A stretch of 36,346 nucleotides of DNA from Myxococcales bacterium (GTDB taxonomy: Bacteria; Myxococcota_A; Polyangia; GCA-2747355): the NCBI GenBank assembly GCA_020431405.1, contig JAGQIK010000431.1:1-36346 (forward strand), written 5' to 3'. This document shows, in pieces, positions 7,415 to 30,400 of the stretch (the first letter of the stretch is position 1; every line of letters starts with the position of its first letter). A program made the translations under genes and the position numbers. The notes beneath the pieces are model-generated. The model was not told the DNA's origin. It searched no databases and saw only the letters and a program-made list of their open reading frames with translations.

Positions 7415-7581
7415 GGCCACGGGCCACAGGCTACAGGCCACAGGCGGCGACTGCGAACGCGGAGCAAGCTTCGCAGCGGCGTTTGCCGCGATGCGTCGGC
7501 GGGAGCTGGCGAGACCCTCGCGTGGAGGCAAGCTTCATCGCACGCGTGAGATCTGTGGCCCGTGGCCCGTGGCCCGTGGCC
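7415..7581. repeat. GGCCCGTGGCC-type repeats, inverted, in convergent gap
   Basis: The 246-bp gap between two convergent genes holds GGCCACGGGCCACAG at 7415-7429 and its exact reverse complement CTGTGGCCCGTGGCC at 7553-7567, followed by two further GGCCCGT units and GGCCTTC up to 7584. The same 15-mer recurs at 10777-10791 in the next convergent gap. Short frames across this gap are not convincing genes. Confidence 0.75.
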
Positions 7582-7613
7582 TTCTGAGCTACCGTGCGCC
7601 AAGCCGAACGAGG

Positions 7614-8063
7614 CTAGCGTTCATCCGGGCGCAGCCACGGCACCATGTCGCTGCCGCGCAGCGGCTCGCCGTCCTCGCCGACGATCCGAAGGCGCGGGAT
7701 CGGGCGGCCCGTTTTGCGATCGAGCAGCACCAGCGGCTCGTTGCCTTCGCCGTAGATCCAGCGATCGCCCCACTGGCGCAGCGCGGTGAGCACCGTGGCG
7801 AGGTCCTTGCCTCGCGCCGTCAGCTCGTACTCGTAGCGCGGGCCGTGCTCGCCGGCGTCGATCTTGGCGAGCACGTCGTGCGTGACGAGGTGCTTGAGGC
7901 GCTGCGAGAGGATGTTCTTGGAGATGCCGAGGCGTGCCTCGAAGTCGGCGAAGCGGCGCACGCCGAGGAAGGCCTCGCGGATGATGAGCAGCGTCCACCA
8001 GTCGCCGAGCACCTCGAGGGCTTGGGCGATGGAGCAGCGTTGGTCGTCGAAGCGTCGTCGCAC
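7614..8063 (-). CDS. HxlR family winged-helix transcriptional regulator
   Basis: Protein of 149 residues. The opening RRRFDDQRCSIAQALEVLGDWWTLLIIREAF is reported here in part: DDQRCSIAQALEVLGDWWTL is the HxlR signature, with the conserved redox-sensitive Cys of this family. The winged helix follows (RRFADFEARLGISKNILSQRL, then YEYELTARGKDL). GTG 8063 begins just before the conserved region and follows GAGAGAG; ATG 8102 would add 13 residues but has no Shine-Dalgarno. The gene is divergent from the molybdopterin oxidoreductase at 8133, which it probably controls. HxlR proteins respond to aldehydes, quinones or oxidants; the signal here is unknown. Confidence 0.88.
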   Translation of the reverse strand: MRRRFDDQRCSIAQALEVLGDWWTLLIIREAFLGVRRFADFEARLGISKNILSQRLKHLVTHDVLAKIDAGEHGPRYEYELTARGKDLATVLTALRQWGDRWIYGEGNEPLVLLDRKTGRPIPRLRIVGEDGEPLRGSDMVPWLRPDER

Positions 8064-8091
8064 GGTGAGCTCTCTCTCGGCCTCCCGGAAA

Positions 8092-8103
8092 TATGGTTGC
8101 ATA
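8092..8103. promoter_or_regulatory. Possible HxlR operator, TATG-GTTG-CATA
   Basis: A short inverted repeat (TATG 8092-8095, CATA 8100-8103) lies in an AT-rich patch between the divergent HxlR and molybdoenzyme starts. The arms are only 4 bp, so this is a weak candidate. Its position just upstream of both genes is where an HxlR dimer would be expected to bind. Confidence 0.3.
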
Positions 8104-8132
8104 AAAGGACCAGATCGGCCAGCATCTCTTGC

Positions 8133-10427
<2,295 letters not shown>

Positions 10428-10839: not shown

Positions 10840-12039
10840 CTAGTAGCGTCGTCGTCGTCGTCGCCCTCGGCGGCGGGCGCGGCGGCGGCGTAGGGCGGCG
10901 CGCCAGCGGCGCCAGGCGCGGCGGCGGCGGACTCTGCGTCTCCAGGCCCGGTAGCGCCAGCGCCAGCGCCAGCTGGGTCGCGATTCACCGCGCAGGATAT
11001 CGACGTGAAAGTGCGGGGGGCGCCGCTCGAGCTTGATCCAGCGCACGTAGAGCTGTCGGCGGGCGAGGCGAATGAAGGCGCCGCGCTCGCGGCGGTTCAT
11101 CGAGATGCTGCGAATGTCGACGGCGCCGGCGCGTAGGTGCGGCGAGAGGAAGACGCCGCGCTTGACCTGGCGTGCGATGGCGTCGCCCATGCGGCGCACG
11201 ATCTCGGCGTGGCTTTCGACCTGCTCGCGCCGGTAACGGTGGCGCTTGAGCCAGCGGCGCCGGTACCTGCGCGACCAGCGCCAGAAGCGGCGTGGCTTGC
11301 GCAGGCGGCCTTTGATGCGCTTGCGCTCGAAGCCGCTGCGATAGGCGCGCAGCACTTGCTCGAGCGGGTAGCGCTGCGCGTAGAGCTTGCGCAGGTTGTC
11401 GCCGAGCAGCAGCTTGACGTACATCGCGCGCGCTTGGCGCTCGGGGCTGCGCGTGCCGCTGGTGATGACCAGGCGCTGGCGAAAGCGCCTGTAGAAGCGC
11501 CGCGCGAGGTCGCGCACGCGAAGCTCGATGTCGGGCGCCAGCTCGACGCCCTCGCGCACGATGTAGCGCGGCGCGCCGTCGAGGCTTTCGACGAGCGTCT
11601 CGAGCGCGCGGACCTCGCGGTCCTCGAGCGTGCGCTTGCTGTCGTCGATCGCGCGCTCGCGCGCGGCGAGCAGCGCCTCGACCACCGCCTGCATCACGCG
11701 CTGCGCTTGGTCGCCGTACTCGCGCCGCACGTGGGTGACCACGTGGCGGTCGATCAACAGCAGCTCGGTCTGGCCCCACAGCCGCCCGTCGCGCTCGACC
11801 TGCACGCGCAGCGCCGCCTGGGCGCAGGGGCCGTGCTCGCACGGGATCACGCGCACGGAGTCGGCGCTGACCTTGGCCAGCTCGCCGAAGTCGCCGAGCG
11901 CCGAGTGCGGCGGCGCCGAGGGCGGCATCTTGATGCGCGCGTCGCGCCTGCTGCGTCTGCGCCCGCGCGCGACGGCTGGTGTCGCCACCGAGAGCAGCGA
12001 CACCAGCGCGAGCAGCGACGCGAGCGCGCGTTGGTTCAC
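10840..12039 (-). CDS. Exported M15-like peptidase with Arg/Trp-rich C-terminal tail
   Basis: Protein of 399 residues with an N-terminal signal peptide ending near residue 25 (PAVARG). The middle is unassigned and helical. VITSGTRSPERQ followed by SPHLRAGAVDIRS and PPHFHVDI matches the zinc-site layout of peptidase M15 D-Ala-D-Ala carboxypeptidases and MepA-like enzymes (HxxxxxxD, then HxH). A role in peptidoglycan trimming is therefore likely but not proven. The last 44 residues contain 27 Arg and 6 Trp, which is extraordinary. The start is GTG 12039, overlapping the upstream molybdoenzyme stop as GTGA, so the two are coupled. Why a cell-wall enzyme is coupled to a molybdoenzyme is unclear. 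Confidence 0.75.
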   Translation of the reverse strand: MNQRALASLLALVSLLSVATPAVARGRRRSRRDARIKMPPSAPPHSALGDFGELAKVSADSVRVIPCEHGPCAQAALRVQVERDGRLWGQTELLLIDRHVVTHVRREYGDQAQRVMQAVVEALLAARERAIDDSKRTLEDREVRALETLVESLDGAPRYIVREGVELAPDIELRVRDLARRFYRRFRQRLVITSGTRSPERQARAMYVKLLLGDNLRKLYAQRYPLEQVLRAYRSGFERKRIKGRLRKPRRFWRWSRRYRRRWLKRHRYRREQVESHAEIVRRMGDAIARQVKRGVFLSPHLRAGAVDIRSISMNRRERGAFIRLARRQLYVRWIKLERRPPHFHVDILRGESRPSWRWRWRYRAWRRRVRRRRAWRRWRAALRRRRARRRGRRRRRRY

Positions 12040-14249
12040 GGCGAGGAGGCGCTCTGGGCCGCGGGCTCGCTGGCCGGCCGCGCTCGCCGCTCTTCGAGCG
12101 GCTGCACGTCGACCTCGATGCCGTTGAGAAACGCCATGCCGGAGAGCGGCTCGATCACGGAGCGGTCGACGAGCTCGTTGTAGTTGGGCGTGGGCTCGGC
12201 GCTCGCCACGCGATTGCGTGCCTCAGTGTGGCCCCAGCCGTGCGGCAGGCAGACCACGCCGGGCATCACCTCGTCGGTGAGCCGCAGCTCGCACGTCACC
12301 GCGCCCGCCGCACCGACCACTCGCACACGCTGCCCGTCGGCGAGGCCGCGCGCCTCGGCGTCGCGCGGGTTGATGCGCAAGCGATGGCAGCGGCGCCGCA
12401 TCAGCGTGGGCGCGTTGTGCATCCAGGTGTTGTGCGAGCGCGGATCGCGGCGCCCGATGAGGCGCAGCGTCTTCGGCGACGAGACCTCGCCGCCTTCGCT
12501 GACGATACGCGTCAGCTGCTCGAGCCCTACCAGCAGCTCCTCGGGCACGAGATTCACGCGCCGGTCCTCGGTGCGCAGCCGTTCGCCGATCACGCCGGTG
12601 CGCGCCGGGCGCGCGTGCAGCCCGTGCGGCTCGGCTTTGATGCGCGCGAGGTTGAGGCCGTCGCGCCACGGCAGCAGCTTGTCGCCTTGTGGTCCGAGGC
12701 GGATCAGCAGATCGACGAGCAGCTCCGGCGTCAGCTCGCGGCCCACCGCGCGCAGCGCGCCTTCGGCGAAGCCGAGCAGTCGGCTGCCCAGCGGCGGCAG
12801 ACCCATCGCGCGCGTGAGGTCGGTGAAGATGCGCCACTCCTGGCGCGCTTCGCCCACCGGCGCGATCACCGGCTCGGTCCACTGCACGTAGGGCGAGGCC
12901 ATCAGCCCGAGGTGCGTCAGCGGCAGGTCTTCGCGCTCGAGAAACGTCGTGGCCGGCAGGAAGTAGTCGGCGTGCGTCGACGTCTCGTTGAAGTAGATGT
13001 CGATGCTGACGAGGCACTCGAGCTGGCGCAGCGCGCGCTGCATCGACGCGCTGTCGGCGATGGAGAGCGCGGGATTGCCTGCCGAGACCACCAGCGCGCG
13101 GATTTGGCCCTCGCCAGGCGTCAGGATCTCGTCGGCGAGCACGCCCGACGGCAGCTCGCCGAGCACCTCGGGGTAGTTGCCGATGCGGCTGCGGTGGCGC
13201 GCGTAGCGATCGAGGCCCGCCACGCGTGCGAGCTGCACTACGTCGACGGGGCTCTCGGCAAATACGGCGCCGCCGGGCTGGTCGAGCTTGCCGGCGAGCA
13301 CGTTGCAGACCTCGAGCGCCCAGCAGGCGTGCGTACCCCAGGTGCCGCAGGCGACGCGCCCGTAGGCGCAGCCGCTCGCCGCGCACGACAGCTCGCGCGC
13401 CAGCTGGCGGATCGTCTCGGCGTCGATGCCGGAGAGCGCCGCCGCGCGCTCGGGCGTAAACGGCTGGACCAGCCGCCGCAGCTTGTCGACGCCGCGCGCG
13501 TGCTTGCGCAGAAAGACGCGCGCCTCGAGCTCCTCTTCGAGCATCGTGCGCGCCATGGCGAGCAGCACGAAGACGTCCGAGTCGGGCCGAATGAAGTGGT
13601 GCTGATCGGCGATCTGCGCCGTCTCGGTGAAGCGTGGATCGACCACCACGAGCTTGCCGCCGCGCTTGCGAAGCTCGCGCAGGCGCGCGCGCACGTCGTG
13701 GATGTTGACGATCGTGCCGTGCGAGACCACCGGGTTGACGCCCCACAGCGACATGTAGCGCGCGCGCTCGACGTCCGGGATCGGCTGCAGGAAATGCGAG
13801 CCGTAGAGCAGATAGGACGCGAGGAAGTCGGCGGAGTTGTCCTGCGTGCCGGCGCCGAAGGCGTTGCGCGTGCCCACCGCCTCGCGAAAGGCGTGCGCCC
13901 ACAGTCGGTGGCTGTAGGAAAAGACGCTCGGGTTGCCGTAGTAGACGCCCACCGAGTGCGGACCGTGGGCGTCGCGGATGCCGCGCAGGCGCGCGCCGAT
14001 CTCCCGTACGGCCTCGTCATAGCCGATCGGCGAAAACGTGCCGTCGGCGTTGCGCTTCATGGGCCGTGTGACGCGATCGGGATCGTGCGTCACCTCGTTG
14101 AAGACCACGCCCGTCGGGCATGCGTGTCCGCCAGACAGCAGATGCTGCTCGTCGGGGCGCAGCTTGCTGACGCGGCCGTCCTCGACGGTGGCCACCATGC
14201 CGCAATAGGCCTCGCAGATGCGGCAGAACGTGACGTGTTGTCGTGTCAT
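12036..14249 (-). CDS. Molybdopterin-dependent oxidoreductase, [4Fe-4S], second copy
   Basis: Protein of 737 residues. Cys9, 12, 16 and 44 (Cx2Cx3Cx27C) form the [4Fe-4S] motif of the DMSO reductase superfamily. Domain features follow: SVGVYYGNPSVFSYSH, YMSLWGVNPVVSHG, VVVDPRFTETAQIADQHHFIRPDSD, VSAGNPALSIADSASM and TSTHADYFLPATT. The C-terminal cofactor-binding barrel includes NPRDAEARGLADGQRVRV and LPHGWGH. No export signal is seen. The protein is only distantly similar to the one at 8133-10427, so this is a different enzyme, not a recent duplicate. Its stop overlaps the GTG of the peptidase. No Shine-Dalgarno precedes ATG 14249; TAAGAT seven bases upstream could be a -10 of a leaderless transcript. 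Confidence 0.93.
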   Translation of the reverse strand: MTRQHVTFCRICEAYCGMVATVEDGRVSKLRPDEQHLLSGGHACPTGVVFNEVTHDPDRVTRPMKRNADGTFSPIGYDEAVREIGARLRGIRDAHGPHSVGVYYGNPSVFSYSHRLWAHAFREAVGTRNAFGAGTQDNSADFLASYLLYGSHFLQPIPDVERARYMSLWGVNPVVSHGTIVNIHDVRARLRELRKRGGKLVVVDPRFTETAQIADQHHFIRPDSDVFVLLAMARTMLEEELEARVFLRKHARGVDKLRRLVQPFTPERAAALSGIDAETIRQLARELSCAASGCAYGRVACGTWGTHACWALEVCNVLAGKLDQPGGAVFAESPVDVVQLARVAGLDRYARHRSRIGNYPEVLGELPSGVLADEILTPGEGQIRALVVSAGNPALSIADSASMQRALRQLECLVSIDIYFNETSTHADYFLPATTFLEREDLPLTHLGLMASPYVQWTEPVIAPVGEARQEWRIFTDLTRAMGLPPLGSRLLGFAEGALRAVGRELTPELLVDLLIRLGPQGDKLLPWRDGLNLARIKAEPHGLHARPARTGVIGERLRTEDRRVNLVPEELLVGLEQLTRIVSEGGEVSSPKTLRLIGRRDPRSHNTWMHNAPTLMRRRCHRLRINPRDAEARGLADGQRVRVVGAAGAVTCELRLTDEVMPGVVCLPHGWGHTEARNRVASAEPTPNYNELVDRSVIEPLSGMAFLNGIEVDVQPLEERRARPASEPAAQSASSP

Positions 14250-28088: not shown

Positions 28089-28093
28089 CGGGG

Positions 28094-28161
28094 CCTCGGG
28101 CCTCGGGCCTCGGGCCTCGGGCCTCGGGCCTCGGGCCTCGGGCCTCGGGCTTCAGCGATCG
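28094..28161 (+). repeat. CCTCGGG x8 array ending in a shared 22-bp element
   Basis: Eight exact tandem heptamers CCTCGGG fill 28094-28149, followed by CTTCAGCGATCG (28150-28161). The last repeat plus this tail equals the 22-mer at 10432-10453. The array starts five bases after a plus-strand stop and lies in a convergent gap (28089-28195). The remainder of the gap shows nothing else. Confidence 0.9.
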
Positions 28162-28195: not shown

Positions 28196-30400
28196 TTAGC
28201 TCGGCACCTCGACGCCCGGCGAGTTGGCGCGCAGCAGGGCGATGTCGTCTTCGACGCCGGCGAATTCCTCGCACTTGTCGCGGCAGCCGAAGTGCAGCCA
28301 CCGGGTGCCCTTGCCGGTGAAGGTGTCGGTCTCGATGTCGCGCTCGACGCCCACACGAAGCTCGCCCTTGGGGATCTTCTGCTCGCAGACGATGCAGGTC
28401 GAGCGCCCGCTCTTGGCCAGCTCGGCGAAGGGAAAGCCCGAGCCCGACGACGACGCCGTGACGCCGCCGCCGCCGCCGCGCGCGGGTGCCGCGGCGCGCT
28501 TGGGCTGCTGCGCGGTGCGGGCGGGGCGATAGCGGTTGCCCTCGACGAGGATCTCGGCGTCGCGGACGATCTCGCTGAAGGTCACCGGATGCAGCTCGCC
28601 GAAGGTGATGGTTGGCCGCTCGCCCGGCTCGAGGCGCTCGCGCTGCTCGACCTCGACGGCGAGGTATTGCCAGGTGTCGATGGTCGCGCTGACGCCGCGC
28701 CCGTAGTAGCGGCCGTAGCCCATCGGGAAGCCGTAGTTGTCGCCTTCCATGTCCTGGTAGGGGTAGTAGCCGCGCTTGTAGAGGGCGCTCGCGATGGTAT
28801 CGAAGCGGATCGAGCGCTTGGCGAAGCGCTTGACCAGGCGCGCCTGTCGCCGCTCGGCGGGCTCGATGCTGTAGGTCGCGCGCGCGAGCTGCTCGAAGGG
28901 CTGCTCGATGGCGAGCGCGTCGAAGCGCGCGCGCCAGCGGTCGACGCGCTCGGGGCCGAGCTCGAGCGGGTGCGGCAGGCCGATGGTCTCGGCGGCGCCG
29001 GCGGCGGGTGCCGGCGCGTCAGCGAGGTCGAGCGCAGCGCCGTCCTCGTCGAGCCGGAACGCGCGCACGAGCTGCTCGCCGCTGAAGACGCCCCAAACCA
29101 GCCGGCGGGCGAGCGGACCGACGATCGGGTTCCACGCCACGTGGCGCAGAAAGTCGCCGCGCGAAAGGCGCGTGCCGTCGGCGAGCATCTCTTCGAGGCG
29201 CCAGCGCCGGATCGCGCGCTGGCGCTCGCCGAGGGCGACGGTAGCTTTGGTCGGCTGCTTGCCCTTGCCGATCTGCGGCAGCTCGCGTGGCGCGGCGCGG
29301 TCGACCATCAGCTCGACGCTGCAGCCGCGCTGCTTGGCGAGCGCGCGCAGCGTCTCGGCGCCGTCGAAGCGGCGCGAGTGGGTGCGCTGCAGCAGGGTGA
29401 CGAGACCGAAGATCTCGCTCACGGCGAGCTCGCTGCCGATGGAGGCGAGCAGCCGCACACCTTGCACGGCGCGCTGGTGCGACCAGTCTTCGAGGTTGTT
29501 GCCGAGGGTCGCGGCGGTGCGGTCGCCGCCGATGAGCCCCGCGAGTTGCTGCGCCCAGCGCTGCCCGGCGGGCTCTTTCTTGCGGATCCACTGGCCGAGC
29601 AGCGCCTCCGCGAGGGCGTCGAGGCTGTCGGCGGTAAACAGCTCGCGCAAGGCGTCGATGAGGCCGAGGTGTCGCTTCTTGTCGACCTCGGCCTTGAGCC
29701 CGACGAGAAGCTGCGCCGGATCGACGTCGAGCTCGGGTGCGGCGTCGGCGCCGGGCACGCGACGCGCGACGAGCTTGGGTAGACCGCGCGTGCTGAGCGC
29801 GACCTTGAGCCGCTTCTGGCCGGCGATGCCCGCGAGCACCTGCGCCCAGCGCTCCTCGGCGGGGCGGGCTAGGCGCGGCAGCTTGGCGCGCAGCGCGTCG
29901 GGCAGCGGGTGCTTGCCGGGATCGCCGACGCGAAGCTCGCTCAGCGTGGGCGGGGCCGAGGCCACCAGCGTCGCGAAGAGCGCGTCGTCGTCGAGCTTTT
30001 CGCGCGGGCTCTTGGGCTCCTCGATGGTCAGCGCGCGCATGAAGCGCGCCGAGGGCGAGCCGAGCAGCGTGGCGAGCGCCTCGCCGATCTCGGCGCCTTT
30101 GTGTCCGCGCACGGTGGCGCCATCGATGAAGCCGAGGCGCCACTCGACGCCGACGCGGCGCGACATCTTGGGCGGCGCCATCGGCCCGAGCAGCGCCTCG
30201 CGATGGGCGCGCAGCGTGTCGCGAGCGCGCCGATCCTGCGCTGGATCGCGGCCCTGCGCGAGCGCTCGGCAGTGCTGTGCGATGAGCTCGCCGCGCGGAT
30301 CACCGAGCCCCTGCAAGTAGTCGCCGTAGACTAGAAAGGCATTGATGTCGTCGGGGTCGGCCTCGATAGAGGCGATCAGCGCGAGGTGTTCGTCCGCCAT
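28196..30400 (-). CDS. TIGR02996 + DUF4132 + PARP-type zinc finger protein
   Basis: Protein of 734 residues without a signal peptide. Residues 1-50 (LALIASIEADPDDINAFLVY, then GDYLQGLGDPRGELI) match the TIGR02996 companion domain of Myxococcus and planctomycete proteins. The region around 400-600 carries DUF4132 features: RRLVWGVFSGEQLVRAFRLDEDG, HPLELGPERVDRW, EQPFEQLARATYSI and a KRGYYPYQD stretch. DUF4132 occurs in MolR/YehI-like proteins, often with WGR domains. The C-terminus has Cys669, Cys672, His703 and Cys706 (Cx2Cx30Hx2C), the spacing of a PARP-type zinc finger. ATG 30400 gives the canonical domain start; ATG 30460 is an alternative. DNA-end or nucleic-acid binding is inferred only from the finger. 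Confidence 0.85.
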   Translation of the reverse strand: MADEHLALIASIEADPDDINAFLVYGDYLQGLGDPRGELIAQHCRALAQGRDPAQDRRARDTLRAHREALLGPMAPPKMSRRVGVEWRLGFIDGATVRGHKGAEIGEALATLLGSPSARFMRALTIEEPKSPREKLDDDALFATLVASAPPTLSELRVGDPGKHPLPDALRAKLPRLARPAEERWAQVLAGIAGQKRLKVALSTRGLPKLVARRVPGADAAPELDVDPAQLLVGLKAEVDKKRHLGLIDALRELFTADSLDALAEALLGQWIRKKEPAGQRWAQQLAGLIGGDRTAATLGNNLEDWSHQRAVQGVRLLASIGSELAVSEIFGLVTLLQRTHSRRFDGAETLRALAKQRGCSVELMVDRAAPRELPQIGKGKQPTKATVALGERQRAIRRWRLEEMLADGTRLSRGDFLRHVAWNPIVGPLARRLVWGVFSGEQLVRAFRLDEDGAALDLADAPAPAAGAAETIGLPHPLELGPERVDRWRARFDALAIEQPFEQLARATYSIEPAERRQARLVKRFAKRSIRFDTIASALYKRGYYPYQDMEGDNYGFPMGYGRYYGRGVSATIDTWQYLAVEVEQRERLEPGERPTITFGELHPVTFSEIVRDAEILVEGNRYRPARTAQQPKRAAAPARGGGGGVTASSSGSGFPFAELAKSGRSTCIVCEQKIPKGELRVGVERDIETDTFTGKGTRWLHFGCRDKCEEFAGVEDDIALLRANSPGVEVPS

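Follow-up and report, generated by a model that had tools for sequence, protein, structure and literature searches.

Human PARP1 senses DNA breaks through zf-PARP zinc fingers, two of which cooperate in the recognition of a nick, and its other break-binding module is the WGR domain. MolR, a protein of the DUF4132 family, was originally assigned a function in molybdate use. In the PARP1 fingers, R18 (R122 in Zn2) reaches into the minor groove, and F44 forms a stack with the exposed base (PMC4678113, PMC8150716). In two surveys, bacterial PARPs consist of WGR and a catalytic domain, and zf-PARP goes unmentioned (PMC4245714, PMC5966428), and we found no paper dealing with bacterial fingers in the open literature on zf-PARP. 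The molR gene is among the known LexA-regulated genes of Escherichia coli (PMC11039860, PMC3978071, PMC4576408), and dra0166, a DUF4132 gene of Deinococcus radiodurans, is strongly upregulated on DdrO depletion (PMC8533742).

The gene described here joins parts of both systems. It lies in a 36,346-nt window, by which we mean the whole stretch of DNA that was analysed (contig JAGQIK010000431.1 of assembly GCA_020431405.1), from a Myxococcales bacterium of the class Polyangia. Its 734-aa product is a new architecture made from known domains, inside a prokaryotic zf-PARP population that is hardly mentioned in the open literature searched.

Results

A DUF4132 protein that ends in a PARP-type zinc finger

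The gene occupies positions 28196-30400 of the window on the (-) strand, with its ATG at 30400 and its TAA at 28196-28198. The frame has no internal stops and its GC content by codon position is 0.75/0.50/0.92, as expected for genes here; it is a real, intact gene. The product begins with a TIGR02996 module (residues 5-46; 30263-30388, (-); NCBIfam 33.8 bits, cut-off 29.05), which is predicted to be helical (pLDDT 71-89). A helical region (residues 228-370; 29291-29719, (-)), recognised by tblastn against plasmids and modelled as helices with pLDDT of about 60-77, lies ahead of the DUF4132 domain (residues 392-545; 28766-29227, (-); Pfam 108 bits, cut-off 27), which covers profile positions 30-179 of 179. 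These are followed by a linker of low complexity with abundant Pro, Ala, Gly and Ser (about residues 626-655; 28436-28525, (-); pLDDT below 50 over residues 621-653), by the PARP-type zinc finger (residues 660-711; 28268-28423, (-); Pfam zf-PARP, PF00645, 45.6 bits, cut-off 39.3, E 1.3e-11) and by a C-terminal tail (28199-28267, (-)) with a predicted helix and an 'L..NS' motif that recurs after finger 2 of stand-alone two-finger proteins. An earlier note, made from the DNA letters, had named TIGR02996, DUF4132 and zf-PARP rightly, since each scores above its curated cut-off.

Homology of the YehI/MolR type spans about residues 240-624 (tblastn against plasmids), and the helical region together with DUF4132 can therefore be regarded as the body of the protein. 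Unlike MolR/YehI, however, the protein lacks an N-terminal WGR, carries TIGR02996 and zf-PARP, and its DUF4132 is without the first 29 profile positions. The full-body model was poor (pLDDT mostly below 50 in the DUF4132 body) because few sequences, those of the window and some others, were fed to it, and weak helical-repeat fold matches of the body were disregarded since the underlying model was too poor. The 734-aa protein is not a PARP enzyme. Pfam scans of it found neither the ADP-ribosyltransferase domain PF00644 nor WGR, and a PF00644 search of the whole genome gave no match, control genomes being equally silent.

In the ORF lists of the window the gene is solitary, having neither a repair operon nor an informative neighbour around it, and ORF lists likewise revealed no repair partner common to the surroundings of this gene, of its paralogue and of the two-finger genes. 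A LexA-like pattern matched once in the 36-kb window, far from the gene and no more often than chance, and not at all near the gene.

The finger matches those of PARP1 in sequence and predicted fold

The Cx2Cx30Hx2C finger that the earlier note had placed at the end of the protein is present, with C669, C672, H703 and C706 as ligands. Its profile search returned zf-PARP, and sequence and fold searches gave nothing else credible. When the PDB was searched with the finger sequence, only PARP1 fingers were recovered (E down to 2e-16), together with DNA ligase III weakly (E 0.059); judged by these scores, the zf-PARP identity is far beyond chance. Nine sequences went into a model of residues 647-734, which reached a mean pLDDT of 84.8, and PARP1 fingers top its PDB matches. 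The top 28 rows of Foldseek (probability at least 0.98) and the top 19 rows of VIA-align were all PARP1 and ligase III fingers, the best VIA-align match being 3ode_A (Z 8.8, 79 aligned, rmsd 2.6), compared to Z of 4.7 or less for unrelated rows. The predicted fold is thus PARP1 Zn1/Zn2-like. The ligase III finger shares the zf-PARP fold, but it is the weaker match (E 0.059, Z 4.8) and the window protein has no ligase domain.

Sequence alignment equates R666, R682 and F694 with R18, R34 and F44 of PARP1, so that the likeness to Zn1/Zn2 (PF00645) extends from the Cx2C...Hx2C ligands and the predicted fold to these three residues. In contrast to PARP1, the window protein has one C-terminal finger on a non-PARP body, is without ADP-ribosyltransferase, WGR or BRCT, and has Gly at the position of V48, which is hydrophobic in PARP1; the sister proteins have Ala or Gly there. 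Among 116 prokaryotic fingers, the ligands (PARP1 numbering) are kept in 116 (C21), 114 (C24), 113 (H53) and 113 (C56), and they are intact in all four DUF4132-finger fusions described below. Equivalents of R18 and R34 are each found in 116 of 116 fingers, metal-less ones included, which points to a constraint on DNA contact. The F44 position is Phe in the four fusions, while elsewhere both loop length and residue vary.

One two-finger protein, G211:C79 (L056:1076-1759 (-)), has lost three of four ligands per finger: each finger lacks the His and the second and last Cys but retains the first Cys together with R18 and R34. By its sequence, it apparently has metal-less PARP fingers with the fold signature preserved.

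The fusion recurs within the class

A survey of the architecture found the DUF4132-finger fusion four times in the class. Two cases are in the genome of the window, where the zf-PARP loci number four (the window gene, C168, C485 and C495). The C168 paralogue (1118 aa) combines HEAT-like repeats, TIGR02996 (27.7 bits, just below the cut-off), DUF4132 and zf-PARP, and shares 38% identity with the window protein over residues 9-731. The third fusion (G321:C96) belongs to another family of the class and has a TIGR02996-like stretch read by eye; in the fourth (G149:C98), HEAT repeats replace TIGR02996. In whole-protein scans two of the four fusion fingers fell below the Pfam cut-off (33.7 and 33.8 bits), with their ligands intact.

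The two other loci of the genome are of different build. C495 encodes a stand-alone two-finger protein, and C485 a zf-PARP-TIGR02996-DUF3553 protein. The latter type, also seen in G330 and G320, shares the finger family and a TIGR02996-type module with the window protein, but its finger is N-terminal and of type 1 and there is no DUF4132; a protein of this group in G304 has no DUF3553 match.

Two other arrangements were noticed. A second recurrent architecture joins zf-PARP, TIGR02996 and an LRR-like region (L041:4995-6914 (+), L126, L129 and L120); profile matches place a C-terminal DUF3553 in at least two members, and the rest were read by eye. Three genomes of the class also have PARP-type fingers joined to ankyrin repeats (L051:6847-9657 (-), L128:3046-4590 (-) and L136:3067-4059 (+), the third read by eye).

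Most PARP-type fingers of the class are in stand-alone two-finger proteins

The earlier note had called bacterial PARP-type fingers scarce, which does not hold for this lineage: in profile searches 78 of the 317 genomes in the class had zf-PARP, versus 18 of 282 genomes sampled from the phylum. In the class it is mostly carried by stand-alone two-finger proteins of 170-220 aa. Beyond the class, such proteins were seen in a Proteobacteria MAG, an Obscuribacterales MAG, a bacterium MAG and a Hodarchaeota MAG, bearing in mind that MAG contigs can be misbinned. The contig assigned to Hodarchaeota (Asgard) encodes tandem zf-PARP in a 266-aa frame (L093:5971-6768 (+)), in which no PARP catalytic domain is visible.

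The finger-1 and finger-2 profiles of 48 tandem proteins were well separated. All four DUF4132-fused fingers scored higher with the finger-2 than with the finger-1 profile (73 versus 51 bits for the window finger, and 76 versus 46, 59 versus 45 and 89 versus 39 for the others). By sequence, the window finger leans toward the second-finger type of the tandem family; this is a leaning and not proof of descent because the tandem protein of the same genome was among the 48. The stand-alone proteins resemble the window protein in their second finger and in a similar tail motif, but differ in their 170-220 aa length, their two fingers and the lack of DUF4132.

In the class, DUF4132 is joined to WGR in some proteins and to zf-PARP in others

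Among the DUF4132 frames of the class, at least 27 have WGR and 4 have zf-PARP, and none has both among the matches listed; WGR and DUF4132 were paired by the same contig, strand and frame length in two match tables. In profile searches of the genome of the window, the WGR and DUF4132 loci never coincide, WGR being found on other proteins, and the remaining DUF4132 proteins have neither WGR nor zf-PARP. One of the WGR proteins of this genome (L145:541-1794 (-)) continues, by eye, into a stretch like the core of an ATP-dependent DNA ligase.

In E. coli, a gene pair of the MolR type, typed by domains and not by the annotated molR name, is WGR-DUF4132. YehI, which adjoins MoxR, DUF5682, VWA and SWIM genes, has DUF4132 and no WGR, and therefore the N-terminal WGR is not general to the MolR/YehI family.

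Discussion

The 734-aa protein is probably a DNA-break-docking variant of the MolR/DUF4132 family, with a C-terminal PARP1-type finger instead of an N-terminal WGR as its break module. From the conserved contact residues, the WGR of sister DUF4132 proteins and the LexA/DdrO regulation of relatives we infer its break binding, its damage role and an effector step. By analogy with PARP1, the finger would grip DNA beside a nick or end, with R666 inserted into the minor groove, like R18, and F694 stacked against the exposed base pair, like F44. The flexible linker would let the TIGR02996-helical-DUF4132 body dock at the break, where it may serve the response to DNA damage or stress, either as a scaffold or as an effector. 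The DNA-damage or nucleic-acid response role put forward in the earlier note is plausible on the same grounds, damage regulation in E. coli and Deinococcus included, although no SOS-like box is near the gene. Other points that count against break docking are the single finger compared to two in PARP1, the solitary position of the gene, the Gly at V48, the molybdate assignment of MolR, the poor body model and the other DUF4132 proteins of the genome, which have neither module.

A less probable account is that the finger, while keeping the PARP fold, has been put to new use as a general docking module for nucleic acids or proteins, on a scaffold unrelated to breaks that would serve, for example, transcription or MoxR/vWA-type machinery. 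The great diversity of zf-PARP partners (ankyrin, HEAT-like, LRR, TIGR02996-DUF3553) would fit such reuse, as would the metal-less G211 protein, with its fold signature kept, and the MoxR-DUF5682-VWA-SWIM cluster beside YehI. However, R18 and R34 persist in every one of the 116 fingers, even the metal-less ones, DUF4132 is elsewhere often joined to WGR, which is also a break binder, and no MoxR-type gene was seen near the window gene.

It is unlikely that the protein is a phage-defence or conflict component sensing the DNA ends of invading genomes. A large multi-domain stand-alone architecture of patchy distribution and the family tie, via YehI, to MoxR-VWA gene clusters are what such a component might show, but none of six proteins scanned matched a PADLOC model, no defence genes were noticed around the window gene, and phage records hold no relatives of the window or the two-finger protein. 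Viral contigs gave none either, and a PHROGs search returned only a DUF4132-like family without assigned function. Very improbable, and already disfavoured, is a functionless remnant left by horizontal transfer of a eukaryotic PARP. Among solved structures the nearest relatives are indeed eukaryotic PARP1 fingers; against this origin stand the intact frame and strong third-position GC of the finger codons, several prokaryotic paralogues with conserved ligands, and a separate family of prokaryotic two-finger proteins, in which finger 1 and finger 2 are types of their own and to whose second type the window finger leans.

Under the preferred break-docking reading, the finger fusion is a clue to the role of DUF4132/MolR. 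That a quarter of the genomes in one class have zf-PARP, on proteins that lack PARP activity, provides a candidate DNA-break sensor of prokaryotes that can be tested, and the range of fusions suggests that bacteria combine break sensors of the PARP style with partner proteins of quite other kinds. These prokaryotic proteins are also material on the origin of the fingers of PARP1. Tentatively, and with considerable doubt, we propose that prokaryotes may use zf-PARP and WGR as interchangeable sensors on DUF4132, TIGR02996, HEAT and ankyrin partners, in a PARP-free break-signalling network, and that the bacterial/Asgard tandem two-finger unit may be related to the source of the eukaryotic PARP1 F1-F2 pair.

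The window has two further features. Two ORFs (7491-10427 (+) and 12036-14249 (-)) resemble molybdopterin-dependent oxidoreductases by eye; their presence in the window of a MolR-family gene, about 14 kb or more away, is probably a coincidence. Between the end of a GDSL-type hydrolase gene (28088) and the end of the finger gene lies a perfect tandem array of the 7-mer GGGCCTC (8.6 copies, 28091-28150).
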